Source of the DNA: Spirogloea muscicola
Taxonomy: Eukaryota; Streptophyta; Zygnematophyceae; Spirogloeales; Spirogloeaceae
Direction: 5' to 3'
Length of the DNA: 24,473 bases
NCBI GenBank assembly: GCA_009602725.1
Contig: WELB01000080.1
Location: 404,840-429,312 of the forward strand
The notes beneath the pieces were generated by a model that did no database searches, was not told the DNA's origin, and worked only from the letters and a program-made list of their open reading frames with translations. Numbering within the stretch: the stretch's first letter is position 1; every line of letters starts with the position of its first letter. This document shows, in pieces, positions 1 to 24,473 of this stretch. The translations under genes and the position numbers were made by a program.

Positions 1-2382
1 CGTTGTCGCCGCCGGCGCCGCCGCCTGGGGCGCCGCCACCGCCGCCGGCGGCCTCGCGCGCTCCTTCGCCCAGGCAACCCCTCTCGACCCCCACCCTTTA
101 TCCAACAGTGTGATTAGAAGTAAAAGGAAGTCCACGATACTTGATCACCTTGCGGGACTCCCCTCCTTCAGCCTCCTCCACCCTCCCCCCCTTTCTCCCC
201 CCCACCCTCTTCACTCCAGCCTCCATGGACCCCGCCGTCGCCCCTCTGCCCGCTGCATGCAAGCTGGAGGCATTGCCAGTAAACAGCAGTGCTGTTGTCT
301 TGATGGTGACCCGAAACCAAATGATCTAGCCATAAATGTGAGATCGGCGGCCCCTGTGGCCTGGTGGGCAGCCCTCGTTCCACCCTCGTTTCTCGATCTC
401 AGTCCATTGCATCGTCTGAGGAGACGGCGGCTGTGGCTGGCAGCAGCTGGCGGTGGCGCGCGGCCTCAACGGCGTCGGCCTGGCGCTGGCCATCCCGGCC
501 ATCCAGTCGCTGGTGGCCGACACGGCGGACCCGGCGGGCCGCGGGCTGGCCTTCGGCTGGCTCCAGGTCGCCGGCAACGCCGGCAGCGTGCTCGGCGGCG
601 GCGCCGCCATCCTTCTCGCCGGCGGCGCGCCCGCCGGCATCCCCGGCTGGCGGGCAGCCTTCCTGCTCACTGCAGCCGTCAGCTTCGCGCTCGCCGTAGC
701 CGTCTATGCCTTTGTCGACGACCCCCGCTTCCCCGCCGGTCGGCCGAGGTGCCCGATTGCTGCCCTGTGCTCCGTGAGCTCAGTCCTGCTTGACATTGAT
801 ATGTAACGGAATGCGATGACAGCCCATGAAAGATAGCCACAAGAAGTGACGTGGCCCCACGCCAAGCGGCCGCGTACCTGAGTGGGGCCGCCCGCACCTG
901 ATGGACTCGGCAGACCGTTTGCAGCAAGGACGCGTCTGGCCGTGGGCATGGCGACCTGGATCCGGCACCGTCCGGCGGCGCAGCCTGGTGGCAGGTGTTG
1001 AGCGAGATGGTGGCGGATGCACGGGCAGTGGCGGGCGTGCCGACGTTCCAGATCATCGCTGCGCAGGGCGTGGTGGGGTCCTTCCCCTGGGCTGCGCTCT
1101 CCTTCTGCACCATGTGGCTCGAGCTCGTCGGCTTCACACACCCTGGTGAACACCGGCTGCAAAATCTTCATGTTCACCCCACCCTCATCCTTGACCCCCA
1201 TTGTTGTACTGTTATCCATTCAGACGTCCTTAATGTGCTGGAGATGCTCGCCACATGGTCATGATGTACTTTTTGCTGCCTACCAGCTCAAGGGCCCCCT
1301 TGTTAATGAGGTCATTTTGTGGACCCTGCATCGCAGGCACGGCTATGCTGCTGGGCTTCTTCGTGGTAGCCACATCGGCTGGCGGCCTTTTTGGGGGCTG
1401 GCTTGGCGATGCCGCTGCTCTCCGTCTGCCAAACACGGGCCGCATTGTGTGCGCCCAATTCAGCGCAGGCAGTGCCGTGCCCCTTGCCGCCCTCCTCCTG
1501 TACGGCCTGCCCAACAATGCGTCTGCGCCGCTCCTCTACGCTGCCACCTTCGTCATTGTGGGCTTCATTATTTCCTGGAATGCCTCCAGTACCAACAAGT
1601 AAGCGGCAGTACGCCCTGTGACCCTGCCCTGGGTGTATACAGGTTTTTGAGCAGGGCATTCAGCTCAAGTCAGTGATAGAAATAAAATCCTATCACTCAG
1701 TCATCAGTCACAAGCTGAGTCCCAACTAGGCACGCCCCTTTAGTGTCAGGCCGTAAGCGCAACTCTTGCTGCAAGGTTGTGAGGTCCAATGCAAAGCAAA
1801 TGCCCAGACGCTGTGTGTACCATTATTCTAGATTTGTAGGTGTATCTAAGCCATTGTCACAATTATCATCACATTGCTGCCATGCGGATATGGCTAATGA
1901 CCTGCTCGTCGTGACTGAACTGACAAGTTTCATTACAATGCCGGCAATACTGTGACGGTGCTCACAGTCCAATATTTGCGGAGATTGTACCGGAAAAGCT
2001 GCGAACGAATGTCTACGCGCTGGACCGTGCGGTGGAGGGCTTGCTGGCTTCGTTTGCACCATATATTGTTGCAACAATCGCTGAGCAATGGTACGGGTGG
2101 CGACCTGTGCAGCCGGGCATGAGAGCGCAGGACGCCCAGATTGCGGACCGTGGCAATGCGCGCGCTCTTGCTGGCGGCCTCTTCCTCTGCACGGCCCTGC
2201 CATGGGCTCTGTGCTGCGCCATTTATACGCTGCTCTACCACCACTACCCTCGTGACCGTGACAATGCCCGCTTCCTGAGCCTGGCCAATGGGGCCGAGCA
2301 CGAGCGCCTGGAAATGCAGCTGGAGACCATCCGCGAGGCTGACGAGGAAGATGCTGATAACGATGCAGACTCGCCCCAATAA
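1..2382 (+). CDS. Plant-type MFS transporter, last five exons (5' end outside window)
   Basis: A membrane carrier of the major facilitator superfamily; the substrate cannot be told from sequence. I place exons at 1-73 (frame from base 2), 447-748, 925-1145, 1337-1598 and 1968-2382. The visible 1272 nt are in frame and give 423 residues plus TAA. The strongest marker is exon 5, which opens with NNPIFAEIVPEKLRTNVYAL and continues to SFAPYIVATIAEQWYGW, the hallmark of a plant MFS subfamily known from Arabidopsis. Exon 2 carries ARGLNGVGLALAIPAIQSLV and GLAFGWLQVAGN, and exon 4 carries GGLFGGWLGDAAALRLPNTG. Hydrophobic segments run throughout, and the C-terminus is acidic (EADEEDADNDADSPQ). Intron 1 appears to use a GC donor after CAG at 71-73, while the others are GT-AG. 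Plant relatives are roughly 500 residues, so about 80-100 N-terminal residues lie to the left. No disabling mutation is seen, in contrast to the inverted copy at the right end. Family assignment is firm, exon edges are good, and substrate is unknown. Confidence 0.88.
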
Positions 2383-3427
2383 TCCTAAGTTTTGACATAC
2401 AGGGTTAGGGCTTCTTCCTAATTAGGAATGCAGGATTCAGATGAAGATGTTGATGAAAAGCTCACCTGTTTTGTCCCTCCCTCCCTCCCTCCCCTTAGTA
2501 TGGCTGCAGATTCGATGCAACTAAATCTCCTCACATTATTGCTGCCCATTCTTTCATTCAACTCATTTGCTACTTTACTCCTATTAGGTAGCTAGAAGAG
2601 GTAATCCGCAATGGTCAACATTATGTTATGGACCTGGCGTAGTGAATCCCATCTTACTTGTTTGGTTGCTCTGAGCAAGCTATGCAACAGGGCCAGTGTA
2701 CTTCATAAGCCTTGCCTGTGTGTGCAATTGGCTGCCTCAAGCACGATGACGGCCCCTTTGGGGGGTGGTCTGCTGCAGTAGGACTCGAGATGTTCATGCA
2801 ACAGCTATCCAATTCCAACTCATCTTCTTTGTCCATCAGCCTTCATTAGTGGAACACATCCTTCAGGGCATGCATGGCCGCAACCTGCAGCGAAGGCCAA
2901 AATTGAGTGCGAACACCTTTGGATTGCCCCGGTTCTTGCATGTATAATGCTTCTCCTGACGAAGTAAATCCTGGATGTGTCCTTTAATACGTCTCGAGTA
3001 GACTAGTCTGGCCTCATGGCACCTGTTTAACTCTCTGCTTTCAGATATGCTTGTAGAGAATTAGTGTTGAAGTCTAAGATCCAGCGACACTCCTGTCCAT
3101 CTTCTCTTGTCCGTGTCTTCAGCTGGGGATTGCCGCTCTCCTTAGTAACAGTAGACCGCTCATGGCGGCAGATGCAGATCAGGTTGGCACAGGCTCCGCC
3201 TGCACCCAGGGTGTATGGCAGATATGGCTAGGGCTCACCAAAGCGCGCGGTCTCAGATTCATATGAACCCTGGGGCACACTCCCTCTCACCGGGAGCACT
3301 TACACAAACCATCAGGCTAATGAAATGGTCACCAAGCCCAGTTGCTGTGTCACCATATCACCACCTTTGACGGGATGCTTCTCCAGCCCAAATTGCTGGT
3401 TCACCCATACCACGACAATCAGCAGTT
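2383..3427. other. Intergenic region downstream of the MFS gene
   Basis: No gene was recognised. It begins with the presumed 3' untranslated region of the MFS gene, contains a short CCCT-type tract (about 2475-2495), and otherwise holds only small unsupported frames. A roughly 33-residue minus-strand open stretch around 3310-3420, just beyond the copia remnant, looks protein-like (it contains LEKHPVKGGDMVTQQLG) but I cannot assign it. Confidence 0.5.
2475..2495. repeat. CCCT/CCTC simple-sequence tract
   Basis: A short run of four-base CCTC units downstream of the MFS stop codon. It is a simple sequence repeat with no evident function. Confidence 0.7.
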
Positions 3428-18569: not shown

Positions 18570-18961
18570 CGGCGTCGCAGGGAGGGGGGGGACGGGGCAT
18601 GCGACGGAGGGAGAGGAGGGGGGGTGCCACGGCACCCCGGCGCCGATTTGACGGGATGATGACGTTCTCACCCCGGTGGAAATGCTCCTGGGAGAAACGC
18701 CCACGCATTTGAGAGGAGGGAGGTGAGGGGGAGGGAGGCGCCGGGAAACCGCTCCCCGCGGAGCCCTTCCTCCCCCTTCCCCCCTCGCCCCTCCCTCCCT
18801 CCTCGCCATGGCGGCGGCGGCCATGGCGCGGAGCCCGGCGAGGGCTTGACTTCCTCGCGGCGGACGCGGCCCGCGGCGGCGGCGGCGGCGGAGGCGGCGC
18901 CGGCGGCGGGCGCGGCGGCGGCGGCGGGCGCGGCGGCGGCGGCGGGCGCGGCGGCCGGGGC
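18570..18961 (+). promoter_or_regulatory. GC- and GA-rich upstream region of the BPC gene, with a short upstream ORF
   Basis: This stretch precedes the BPC start. It contains purine-rich GA tracts (about 18572-18622 and 18712-18745), then a GGC-repeat stretch (about 18866-18960). BBR/BPC proteins bind GA-rich DNA, so autoregulation is conceivable but unproven. An upstream ORF of 13 codons starts at ATG 18808 and ends with TGA at 18849, ahead of the main start. No TATA box is evident. Confidence 0.4.
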
Positions 18962-20850
18962 ATGGCAGCGCTCCTTTTCCCGCCTCCATCGTACGNCATC
19001 ATCCCGGGCGTCGGCGGCCACGGCGGCGGCGGCGGCGGCGGCGTCGGCGGCGGGGGCGGCGGCGATGCCCCGGGCAGCGTAGACACCGAGAGCGCCATCA
19101 AGACGGCGCTGGACCAGATGCTGGACGAGGAGGCCAACCAGGCGGAGCAGGCGGAGCAGCACGCGCTGGCGCGGCCAAAGCCGCGCGCCTGGCTGCATGG
19201 CGAGGAGTTCGCCAAGTGGCAGCACGACCAGGCGTACCTCAAGCTGCAGCAGGACCAGGCGCCCGGCGTGGAGGACAACGACCCGGGGTCCATGGAGACG
19301 CTCAATGTTGCGGAGATCATCGCGGAGCGCGACCAGGCGCGCGCGGACCACCGCAAGGAGATGGCCTCCCGGAAGCACAAGGCGTTCGAGAGCCGCCAGT
19401 ACCACGCCCAGCGCGACGTTGCCCGCCAGGAGCGCGACGCCGCGCAGCGCGAGCGCGACTTTGCGCGCAAGGAGCGGGATGCTGCCAGGTGAAGCTCTGC
19501 AGCAGCCCTGGGGAAGCTCTGCTTGCCTTCTGTGTTGAACTTTGATGCTGCAACATATATCGAGCAGGAGGTGTTGCTTGTAATGGCCACGAGTGGTGAC
19601 TGAACGAAGGTGCAGCTAGGTCCCTCTGCAGAGCATTGAGCAGGGTGAAATCTTTTTGAGATCATATGTGTTGGTCAGTTTGGCATGAAAGGCAACGAGA
19701 ATCTCAATCAGTAGGCAGCAAGGGTGACATGTCAAAATTCCTGTACACACGCAGCAATTCAGAAAGGGCTGCAGACAGTCATGGGCGGAAATGGTCGTCA
19801 GAAATGGCAGCCTAGGTCGTCAGATGGCAGCCTTCACTATGGCATGAAAAGGCAACGAGAAACTCAATCAGTAGGCAGCAAGGGTGACATGTCAAAATCT
19901 CTGCTCACATGCAGCAATTCAGGAAGGGCTGCAGATAGTCATGGGCGGTAGAAGTCATCAGATGGCAGCCCTGATAAAGCGCGTCCTGAAATGTCATGAG
20001 CATCTTCTATCCAGGGCAACGCTGGCCGCAGCTCTGGCGGCCTGTCGGTGTGGCAAGGTCGCAGAGCTGGGCCCTGTGAGGAAGATGGGAGCAGCCCTGG
20101 CCGGGGTTGGAGAGAAGAAGAAGAGCCACAAGAGGAAGGCCCCGGTCGACCAGCATCAGCACCAGCATCAGCAGCAGCAGCAGCAGCAGCAGATGTCGTT
20201 TGACAGTTATCGGCATGGAGAGGAGGACATGAGAGGCTACCAGGTCTCCAGCAACGGGAGCTGGAAGGCTGCCGCAGTGACGGAGCTGAGGAAACGGTAT
20301 CACGAGGACCCAAACGAGGAGCCGAGGATGGACACACCTGTCCCCCACTGCACCTGCACAGGGGCGAAGGTGAAGGCGTACAAGGGTGGGCAGAGCTGGC
20401 AGGTGCAACCCTTGGCGTTTCTCAAAAAATTGAAGAATATAGGGTCTTTAGTAATCATCAAAGGAGTACTAGTACTTACTACAAACTGCTATGTATATGA
20501 GTAAGCTCATCCAAGCCAGGCATGCGACACCTGGCTAATTGCGTGCCTATTTGTTGCCGAGATTTTAGCAGCATACTGTTGGACACTATTGTTGACTATC
20601 CTGTGTTCTCGCCGTGCAGTCCGCTTGCTGCACAGTGACATTGTCCCAGCACCCCCTGCCAGCCAAGCCTAGCGCACCAGGGAAGCGCATCGCAGGCAGG
20701 AAGATGAGCTTTGGCGTTTTCAACAGACTGCTGGAGCATCTGAAGGTGCAGGGCGTGGACGTCGAGTCGTCAATAGACCTCAAGGATCACTGGGCTCTCC
20801 ATGGGACGAACAAATACAGGATCATACCTGCTGCAGAGGACGAATTGTGA
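18962..20850 (+). CDS. BBR/BPC (Basic Pentacysteine) GAGA-motif-binding transcription factor, three exons
   Basis: A nuclear DNA-binding regulator of the plant BBR/BPC family. Exons 18962-19488, 20015-20402 and 20620-20850 give 381 residues plus TGA with consistent phases. Residues 1-40 are Ala/Gly-rich. About 110-176 is a charged coiled coil with AEIIAERDQAR and RQERDAAQRERDFARKERDA, the repeat that in plant group I BPCs mediates dimerisation. Next come a basic nuclear-localisation-like KKKSHKRK and a Gln/His tract with eight CAG codons (20169-20192). The C-terminal DNA-binding domain starts with PVPHCTCTG (Cys288, Cys290), continues across the exon 2/3 junction with GGQSWQSACCT (Cys308, Cys309), and ends with RIAGRKMSFGVFNRLLEHL and DLKDHWALHGTNKY, close to the plant RIAGRKMS and WAKHGTNKF blocks. 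The third signature Cys is Ala297, and the following YxWGxGGW is shortened to YKGGQSW. The first in-frame Met is used; base 18996 is N, leaving codon 12 undetermined. Confidence 0.92.
19681..19976. repeat. Tandem duplication (~159-bp unit) inside BPC intron 1
   Basis: Two diverged copies start at 19681 and 19840, each opening TGGCATGAAA and sharing AATCAGTAGGCAGCAAGG, GACATGTCAAAAT and GCAGCAATTCA. The second copy is shorter, ending near GATGGCAGCC at 19969. It lies wholly within the 526-nt intron (19489-20014), nearly doubling it. Confidence 0.8.
20169..20192 (+). repeat. (CAG)8 microsatellite coding for polyglutamine
   Basis: Eight CAG codons in frame in BPC exon 2, preceded by alternating CAG/CAT codons (Gln-His). 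It is likely length-polymorphic and forms a flexible linker between the coiled coil and the DNA-binding domain. Confidence 0.9.
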
Positions 20851-21408: not shown

Positions 21409-23632
21409 GGCCAGTATTGAGGTTCTCCACTCTTCCGGCCTGCTCATGGACTGCTGCCTCCTCCTTCACACGAGCACGTCTATCGCGGCTCCCCTTTGCT
21501 ATGTACTGTGGCAATGACCGCTGTCATTCTAGGTGGAGTCTCACTCAGGATACTTGTTGATGTCTGGGCGCCAACAATGCTCTTTTGGTAGCGTCGGCAG
21601 AGTGGGCGGCTCAATGTCATGCATGCGTCAACATCTTGCCCCCCCCTGCTGTTGCTTACGAGGCCTGGTCAGAGTAGGGCTCGTTGACATTCTATGGGCA
21701 CAGCATATAAGAGGTGTGTGAGAGGATGCCTTTCCAGAAATCACTACGTGACCCTTGAGCTCACCATTGTACATCTATTTGCAGACTTGCATAATACATA
21801 CTAAAGAGCAAGGCCACAGCTTAGGTAGCTGAGTACGTGTCTGCTACTGTGGCCAACATATTAGAGAGTCTCGCATGTGCGTGGGCTGTCAACCATTACA
21901 AGGTGGAGTCTGCAGCCCGACTCTTGACTGTGGACTCCTGACGACATCATCTTGATCTTGGCGACCAAATGCCGCAGTCATATGTCCAGGCACTGCTGAT
22001 TGTCTAGCATTGTTGTCCTACTTGTTTGCCACAATGTGCTCAAAATATGACTGAGAGAAATTTACGATCAAGCTCCATGTATTGCGTTTGTCACCGTTGA
22101 CAATTTAGTGTCTGTGGACAGGAGGTCGCTGCAGACAGTGTCTGAGAAAGAGTTTGAGCTTCTCAACAGTACCATATGCGAGCTTAGCCGCCTGCATAAA
22201 TCTGCCTCTTACTCTCTGTTACTGGCAGCGCAGTACTGGTTTTGACTGGTCTTGGCGTTGTTCGAACAAGCCATTAATGCTTCGAGTTGGCCCAATGCCC
22301 TTGCTATGGATACTGTTCCATACGCAGCTCCGTCACTCTTCAATAAGCAACCTCAAGTGCCACCTGCAAGTTGGGCCATGAGTAATTGAGATATTAATAG
22401 CTGCAGATGACTGCAGGTGGCAGTCTTGTACGATGGAGAATGTAGAGGATCTGGGCAGGCAAGCACAAGGATTGAACCACTTTTGTGCACTCTGCAGCAG
22501 TGGGCCACATGCAAATTGAGCAGCATGCTGTCAGAGACTTAAGGACTTCGGAAGAACAAGAAAACTTACTCTCAGTTGTTCATCATCTCCAGCAGCATCT
22601 CCGGGGGCTTGTGCTCCTTTTTAATTGCCAGTCTTATATAGTCTGCTCTGTCAGGTCTTTCGGATAGTGGTGGTACAGCAACCCGTCTATGGCGGAGCAC
22701 ACAATCCATGGCATGGTCATGCATGCGAGGAGGCCATGAGAAAGTGCACGGGTATTGCTGCGGTTGGGGAGTGCACTGCCTTGCGCTTACAGGCCCTTCC
22801 CCACTGGGTGATAGCCGTACCATCGCTCGGCAATTGTAGCCACAACCAACGGCGCAAATGATGCTGGCAGGGACTCCAATGCATTGTCCAGTGCATACAC
22901 GCTCGATCGCAAGTTCTGCGGTACTATCTCAGCTTTGATGGGGCTGCCAAAAAATCATAAGCACCGCAGTCAGAGTGCATTTAGGGCATGACTGCAGCTC
23001 GCTGAGCTGCTCATGCAGGGCACCGTATGCATTATCTACATGGACATCTGTGGTGTCCTTCACATCCTGGACACGAGCAGCTAGGTGGCATATGATGCTC
23101 CAACATTTGCTAGCTACTCAGGCCATGGGCTTGGTGGCGTCTTTGACTTAATATTGCTATAATTTACTAGTTGATGTTGATTTAGCTTCTCTGGTAGTCA
23201 ACAACAGGGCGTTGTGCTGCTCACTTGTTGGTGGCAGAGCCATTCCAGGAGTTGAGGAGGCCCATGGGGATCAGCGTCGCAGCGTGTAGGAGTGGCCTCG
23301 GTGCATCAGTGGGCAGGCCATAGAGTAGGACGATGTAGATGATGGCGGCGCAGCTAGAGCAGAACTGGGCACACGTAATGCGGCCAGCATTAGGGAGCCG
23401 GCGGGCAGCAATGTCGCCGAGCAAGCCCCCGAAAAGGGCGTCGACCGACGTTGCTACGTGGTATGAAATCTGCAGCTTAGCCGTGCCTGTGGCACAGGAA
23501 ACCATGACCTCCAGGCGCAATCAGCACCTCATGAAGGCGGCCAGGATCAGGCACACCACAACAGGTCTGGGGCTTGTGATCAATTTGTGTCAGGGCTCCA
23601 CCAGTAAGTTGAGGTTTGTTTGAGTATAATAG

Positions 23633-23655
23633 GACTTAGGGTTTAGGTTTTTGGG
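23633..23655 (+). repeat. Short degenerate telomere-like repeat
   Basis: About three degenerate units (CTTAGGG, TTTAGG, TTTTTGGG) in an intron of the MFS pseudogene (23675-23487), in the same orientation as the larger tract at 23955. Confidence 0.6.
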
Positions 23656-23954
23656 ATGATAGGGCCGTTGCTCACCGGCCTGCGTGAATTCAATAAGCTC
23701 AAGCTACATGGTGCAGAAGGATAATGCGGCACCAGGGAAGGAGCCCACCATGCCCTGGGCGACGATGACTTGGACCGTCAGGACGCCCATCACAGTCCGC
23801 GTGTCCGCCAGCATCTCGTCAAGCACCTGCCGCCACCCGCCGCCTGGCAGATGCTGGTGGTCCTCATGGTCCAGGCTCCCCAGCTCACTACCAGACATGT
23901 CCTTGCAATACTGGAGTGGCAGTGCTCAGTGAAACGTGTGTATGAATCACTGTG

Positions 23955-24003
23955 GCTTAGGGCTTAGGTTTAGGGTTTCGGGTTCAGGGTTTAGGGTTTA
24001 GGG
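23955..24003 (+). repeat. Interstitial telomere-like repeat, TTTAGGG type
   Basis: Seven consecutive units, three exact TTTAGGG and the rest one-step variants (CTTAGGG, TTTCGGG, TTCAGGG), lie within the pseudogene intron 24059-23906. TTTAGGG is the telomere repeat of land plants and many trebouxiophyte algae, whereas Chlamydomonas uses TTTTAGGG. Confidence 0.85.
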
Positions 24004-24361
24004 ACGACGTTGGTTGCGAAGCAAGAGGATGCTTACTGGGAAAGGGTGGAAGGAGGCACCTCGGCTGGCCTGCAGTAGAATGGGGATCCTCGACAAAACC
24101 GTACATGGCCGCAGCGAGCACGAAGCAGACGGCAGCAGTGAGCAAGAAGGCGACACGCCAGCCGGGAATGCCGGCGGGTGCTGTCTCCACGAGCATGATG
24201 GCGGCGCCGCTGCCAATGATGCCACCACTGTTGCCAGCGACCCTGAGCCAGCTGAAGGCCAGCCCTTGGTCTGCCGCGTCAGCTGTGTCGGCAACCATAG
24301 AGTGAATGGCTGGGTTTGTCCACGCTAGGGCGATGCCACTAAGGCTGCGAGCCAGTGCCAG

Positions 24362-24473
24362 CTGCCGCCACCGCCAGCCACCACCGATGCCGTCGCCACC
24401 GCCCCCCCCACCACCCCTCCAGCTATCAGATCTGGAAGGGTAGAGGGAGAGAGCGGGGGGGGTGGGGGGGGGG
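24362..24473. other. Intron sequence of the MFS pseudogene, with poly-C/G simple sequence
   Basis: On the minus strand this is the 3' part of the intron before exon 24361-24060, ending in GCAG. It is rich in homopurine/homopyrimidine runs (G tract at 24456-24473). The preceding exon, homologous to bases 1-73, would lie beyond the window edge. Confidence 0.6.

Follow-up and report, generated by a model that had tools for sequence, protein, structure and literature searches.

The DNA analysed here (the window) is a stretch of 24,473 nucleotides from the zygnematophyte alga Spirogloea muscicola and holds, at about 18.96-20.85 kb on the forward (+) strand, a BBR/BPC-type gene formed by three exons and two coding introns. 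All the features of the gene given below lie on this strand. The gene is present in three copies in the assembly (153.1 Mb, 471 contigs), one on the contig of the window (C80) and the others on contigs C48 and C49. Exon 1 (18962..19488) comprises a Gly-rich lead, with conservation between the copies starting at about 19060, and a coiled-coil (alanine-zipper-like) stretch (GSMETLNVAEIIAERD...RDAAR, 19286..19488), which runs on into the start of exon 2; its GT donor at 19489 is present in all three copies. Intron 1 (19489..20014), also with GT-AG borders in every copy, shows an identity of 76-84% from copy to copy, lower than that of exons 1 and 2 (95-97%). Exon 2 (20015..20402) contains the end of the coiled coil, the short motif ACRCG, a basic stretch, a Q/H-rich stretch and the first part of the DNA-binding domain. 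The basic stretch (EKKKSHKRK, 20112..20138), identical in the three copies, is a candidate nuclear localisation signal by reading only, and the Q/H-rich stretch is coded by a CAG repeat (14 copies, window 20151-20192), whose length differs among the three copies.

The cysteine block starts in exon 2 with the first and second signature cysteines, C288 and C290 (CTC, 20349..20357), followed by Ala297 (codon GCG, 20376..20378) at the third signature position and by a shortened aromatic-Gly loop (YKGGQSWQ, 20379..20402). It is then interrupted by intron 2 (20403..20619), whose GT-AG borders and position are constant in the three copies. Exon 3 (20620..20847, with the stop at 20848-20850) codes for the remaining DNA-binding domain and the C-terminus, including the fourth and fifth signature cysteines (C308 and C309, 20626..20631), the sequence WALHGTN (20791..20811), which is the WAR/KHGTN motif with Leu365 for the basic residue, and a C-terminus (RIIPAAEDEL, 20818..20847) in place of the terminal TIR/K. 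Exons 2 and 3 join in phase 0 between GT-AG borders, with ...PVPHCTCTGAKVKAYKGGQSWQ from exon 2 followed by SACCTVTL... from exon 3.

The start of the protein is less certain than its end. Taking the ATG at 18962 as the start, the predicted protein has 381 residues; nevertheless, this ATG precedes a lone N (18996) and has no aligned ATG in C48 or C49, which also carry one N each, so that the residue number 297, counted from it, is provisional. The single Ns, one in the GC-rich 5' part of every copy (window 18996, position 2316 of stretch L004 and position 2231 of stretch L005), are probably collapsed gaps, which leaves the true start codon uncertain. Farther upstream, at window 18808-18849, C80 has a short frame (ATGGCGGCGGCGGCCATGGCGCGGAG..., ending in TGA), of which C48 has an almost identical version; it is possibly a uORF or a relic of the true start.

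Two transporter-like stretches (recognised by eye, window 800-2400 and 23000-24400) flank the gene on opposite strands; pieces of the two match at 68-77%, and additional copies occur outside the window on each of the three contigs. Four neighbouring open reading frames, among them the one at 1924-2379 in the left stretch, match no Pfam family at E up to 0.01. At window 23957-24003 there is an interstitial telomere repeat of the plant type (TTAGGGT, 6.9 copies), with matches on many contigs. Both flanks of the gene are collinear on C48 and C49, with order and orientation kept (the right flank being 83% and the left 90% identical, and the left one lying farther from the gene in the other copies, at about 31 and 34 kb, compared with 19 kb on C80), which indicates that the copies are block copies and not single transposed genes. 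A genome triplication has been reported for the zygnematophyte S. muscicola (PMC7994812; PMC11712027), and blocks, as well as several of the GRAS, NAC and BBR-BPC-type genes, occur in threes. GRAS genes are plentiful in the genome (92 exon matches) and NAC genes are present (38 matches), whilst the lack of a match to GeBP, a land-plant marker, is uninformative, as no control gave a match either. The E(z) CXC family (PF18264) gave one match only in this otherwise triplicated genome (C40:172052-172147), with a short model that may miss others.

By homology, as judged from its match to the Pfam profile, the gene belongs to the GAGA_bind family (PF06217). Taken from GGDAPG on (349 residues), the spliced protein scores 148.9 bits, above the curated cut-off of 26.6, and the match is one collinear stretch covering profile positions 28-283 of 284. 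The last 101 residues, which correspond to the domain alone, score 137.1 bits, and exon 3 by itself 103.2 bits (E 3.9e-29). Additionally, the matches of the two exons abut, exon 2 ending at profile position 214 and exon 3 starting at 215, which supports the splice between them, and the RxxGRKMS core is intact (RIAGRKMS in the three copies). A preliminary description of this DNA had read the gene as a BPC-type factor with a coiled coil, a basic stretch and a C-terminal domain, and had named a search with this very profile as a check; the score bears out the assignment to the family. Under the strict five-cysteine definition, the gene is outside BBR/BPC (BASIC PENTACYSTEINE): four of the five cysteines are present, the third being Ala in all copies, and the spacing to the CC pair is one residue shorter. 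The WAR/KHGTN motif appears as WALHGTN, with six of its seven letters, in all three copies, and the protein ends in RIIPAAEDEL in C80 and in RIIPAAEDEM in C48 and C49 where TIR/K would stand, the last residue being the only difference between these termini.

The family owes its name to the five cysteines, which have been proposed to pair the domain by disulfides. In the algal protein, the block reads C-T-C-T-G-A-K-V-K-A-Y-K-G-G-Q-S-W-Q-S-A-C-C. Replacing Ala297 with Cys raises the score of the domain against the GAGA_bind profile from 137.1 to 141.6 bits (+4.5), whereas replacing it with Ser brings no gain (137.0 against the native 137.1 bits), and changing any of the other four cysteines to Ala lowers it from 137.1 to 131.4 bits (-5.7). 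The profile itself thus prefers a Cys at the third position. The addition of one Trp to the loop raises the score to 148.2 bits (+11.1 against the native 137.1), so the loop is indeed short. An alignment with AtBPC1 and AtBPC6 agrees on the missing Cys and on the short loop. Both features had been pointed out in the preliminary description and stand, the codon at 20376-20378 being confirmed as GCG in the three copies. The two cysteines of the ACRCG linker were considered as counterparts of the cysteine pair of group II; the profile gives no support to this (with one or the other replaced by Ala, the score is 150.4 or 148.3 bits, the native value being 148.9) and, as it does not favour them, they are not counted as replacement cysteines.

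It could be argued that an error in sequencing, in assembly or in the splice model masks a normal five-cysteine domain, given that in the assembly the 5' part of each copy carries one N. This is highly improbable: the third position is far from the N, the three copies agree on GCG, on the splice borders, on the introns and on the loop, and GCG shares no base, position by position, with either Cys codon (TGC or TGT). Reading the cysteine block in the two remaining frames yields no Cys at the third position, and the same is true for every in-frame, stop-free splice product, native one included (16 in C80, 19 in C48 and 19 in C49), obtained with GT or GC donors up to 60 bases from the donor and with AG acceptors from 100 bases before to 30 after the acceptor. 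A sequencing or assembly error and alternative splicing can therefore be set aside as causes of the missing Cys, and the two escape routes foreseen in the preliminary description, a junction restoring the Cys and a sequencing error, fail on these computed splice products and on the shared GCG, respectively. The gene is a four-cysteine variant of the known GAGA_bind family, real and conserved, rather than an error.

The comparison of the copies also shows how the protein has been maintained. Identity between copies is 95-98% in the exons, 76-93% in the introns and 76-82% in the 3' flank. In 97 codons of the domain there are no nonsynonymous changes, against 7, 9 and 7 synonymous ones in the three copy pairs, and over 347-348 codons dN is 0.0025-0.0062 and dS 0.113-0.160, the dN/dS values of the pairs being about 0.02, 0.02 and 0.055. 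The Gly-rich lead, which is unalignable, and the last codon, L in C80 and M elsewhere, are excluded from these counts. The three copies are under purifying selection. The suggestion in the preliminary description of a relaxed form finds no support in these ratios or in the unchanged domain, and relaxed selection or a dying gene is ruled out for the three copies.

No fourth paralogue with five cysteines was found among the genome matches to exons 2 and 3, although a missing match does not amount to absence. Exon 3 gave three full matches plus two weak ones (E 0.0015 and 0.003), both of them from a broken copy, and for exon 2 there were, besides three full matches, a weak one in this broken copy and three others with E between 0.11 and 3.5. 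This broken copy is located in an inverted duplicate outside the window, about 10 kb downstream on C80 (about C80:435627-436070, minus strand, within stretch L006, C80:434900-437600), and consists of pieces of exon 2, with a stop inside, and of exon 3, at 74-77% DNA identity. It is devoid of the stretch from about residue 231 of the aligned protein to intron 2, and has thus no cysteine block.

Besides the cysteine and the loop, the domain departs from the family in two further places, both absent from the preliminary description: WALHGTN, and RIIP plus an acidic tail. Changing Leu365 to Lys or to Arg adds 4.2 and 3.4 bits, respectively, to the GAGA_bind score, and ending the domain in VTIK instead of the native C-terminus adds 8.4 bits. 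According to PMC6477699, the domain has three conserved regions (the cysteines, RxxGRKMS and WAR/KHGTN) and TIR/K at the end, and AtBPC1 binds about 30% less without TIR and not at all without its last 13 residues. In view of these truncations, which reduce or abolish binding, the WAL and RIIP changes would have a more direct effect on DNA binding than the cysteine change, and binding to GA repeats may be weaker or different, as two changed places lie in the part reported as needed for it. A more radical possibility is that GA-repeat binding was lost or redirected, the protein being a coiled-coil chromatin adaptor which keeps the fold and not the GAGA recognition. The loss of both the basic residue of WAR/KHGTN and TIR/K is in line with this, as is the abolished binding of AtBPC1 lacking its last 13 residues (PMC6477699); nevertheless, we regard it as unlikely, considering that GRKMS and HGTN are intact and that not one amino-acid change separates the three copies in the 97 domain codons.

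The explanation that we consider probable is that the protein is a functional BBR/BPC homologue of a zygnematophyte alga, under purifying selection and in a four-cysteine form (CxC ... CC). In this explanation, the protein would pair via its N-terminal alanine-zipper coiled coil and enter the nucleus by means of the basic stretch, and its C-terminal domain would bind GA/TC-rich DNA and bring regulatory partners, as in plants. The DNA target, the pairing, the partners and the role of each cysteine are all inferred. In the 1-kb stretch upstream of the three copies, GAGAGA/TCTCTC does not occur, which is uninformative, given that only 0.3-0.5 occurrences are expected by shuffling.

The N-terminal similarity on which the proposed pairing draws is modest, with only about 12 of the 148.9 bits lying outside the domain. 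The profile match has its start within the coiled coil, at profile position 28. With three residues of IIAERD altered, the score falls to 140.3 from 148.9 bits (-8.6), and the score of the N-terminus against that of AtBPC6 is reached by 4 of 1000 heptad-preserving shuffles. Coiled coils resemble one another by composition. The layout shared with groups II and IV, coiled-coil N-terminus included, has modest sequence support.

As for the cysteines, the four that are left would form two pairs holding the domain, by disulfide or, less likely, by metal. The fifth, a possible inter-domain link in land plants, is absent, so that pairing would rely on the coiled coil and be less sensitive to the redox state; oxidation abolished the binding of AtBPC1 (PMC6477699). 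The metal alternative can be worded more specifically, as a four-cysteine zinc site in which CxC-x17-CC holds one zinc and the fold is metal-dependent rather than disulfide-dependent. The domain retains exactly four cysteines, in two pairs, and a zinc-finger-like role was an early proposal for the family (PMC6477699; PMC6829308). Yet the binding of AtBPC1 in vitro was unaffected by zinc excess or depletion (PMC6477699, citing Theune 2017), and the fold model, built for exon 3 alone from one sequence, is poor (mean pLDDT 53.6), which makes this site improbable in our view. With exon 3 as the query, no homologue was found among the PDB sequences.

The presence of the family in this alga has to be considered in the light of what is reported about its distribution. 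In PMC6477699 (2019), the BPC domain is described as present in no green alga. More recently, PMC12866927 (2026) assigns the emergence of BBR-BPC and GRAS to Anydrophyta, the clade of zygnematophytes and land plants, and that of NAC to the next deeper step, from which a zygnematophyte member of BBR-BPC is to be expected; the gene described here belongs to the same family as that in its Table 1 and, by inference, to the same clade of origin. The preliminary description had considered a green-algal member notable in itself: the member is indeed there, but with an Anydrophyta origin of the family its occurrence is the expected one. The accessible text of PMC12866927 names no algal BPC sequence and does not mention the cysteines of algal members, and a search of one open-access library retrieved neither an algal BPC alignment nor a paper on algal BPC cysteines. 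In their main text, TAPscan v4 (PMC11712027) and the Prasinoderma genome paper (PMC7455551) contain no BBR, BPC or GAGA, the accessible part of PMC8788455 has nothing on algal BPC, and only membrane-bound BBR-BPC is listed in PMC5694209.

Compared with the land-plant proteins, the algal one shares with group II (AtBPC6-type) and group IV, besides a putative alanine-zipper-like coiled coil with an IIAERD-type start, the basic stretch, the H/Q-rich stretch and a GAGA_bind domain with CxC, CC, RxxGRKMS and HGTN. It differs from them in the Ala for the third Cys, in the loop shorter by one residue, in WAL for WAR/K and in RIIP with an acidic tail for TIR/K; these same places (third Cys, loop, WAR/K residue and C-terminus) are where it departs from the Pfam GAGA_bind profile (PF06217). 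The gene structure is also different: the algal gene has two coding introns, one of them splitting the cysteine block, unlike the land-plant BBR/BPC groups, for which PMC6477699, in the genes selected there, describes a single short coding intron, in the 5' part, for group II only.

Two opposite histories can account for these differences. The one towards which we lean, at little better than even confidence, is a lineage-specific loss, in which an ancestor with five cysteines and WAR/KHGTN gave rise to an alga (or to zygnematophytes at large) that lost the third Cys and altered the contact motif. Our leaning is based on the fact that several family-wide positions depart together: the third Cys, the loop length, WAR/K and TIR/K are all conserved across land plants, according to PMC6477699, and all differ in the alga, which fits divergence on one branch. 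Nevertheless, when only two lineages are compared, a loss in the alga is as parsimonious as a gain in land plants, and the broken inverted copy, which holds no third-Cys position, is uninformative about the direction of change and no help to the loss. Such a loss is compatible with the protein being a functional homologue, as it concerns the direction of change only.

The reverse history, that the four-cysteine CxC...CC form is ancestral and that the land-plant stem gained the third Cys, the loop Trp and the basic residue of WAR/K, appears to us a more doubtful option. Purifying selection maintains an intact four-cysteine form in all three copies, and the alga presumably belongs to the sister group of land plants; on the other side, the comparison rests on one algal sequence, without an outgroup. 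A pattern scan of viral_contigs gave 16 matches and no relatives among them, in a collection from which records close to the alga's genome may be absent. Carried further, and still more tentatively, the ancestral history would imply that a coiled-coil four-cysteine factor existed before land plants and that the addition of the third Cys, the loop Trp and the basic residue turned it into a redox-linked reader of GA repeats.

The putative coiled-coil N-terminus of the algal protein suggests that the layout of groups II and IV is the older one and that the coiled coil was lost in group I. A conserved natural homologue with four cysteines outside land plants, in which WAR/KHGTN is changed and TIR/K is absent, provides a test of the role of each cysteine and bears on how the recognition of GA repeats arose.
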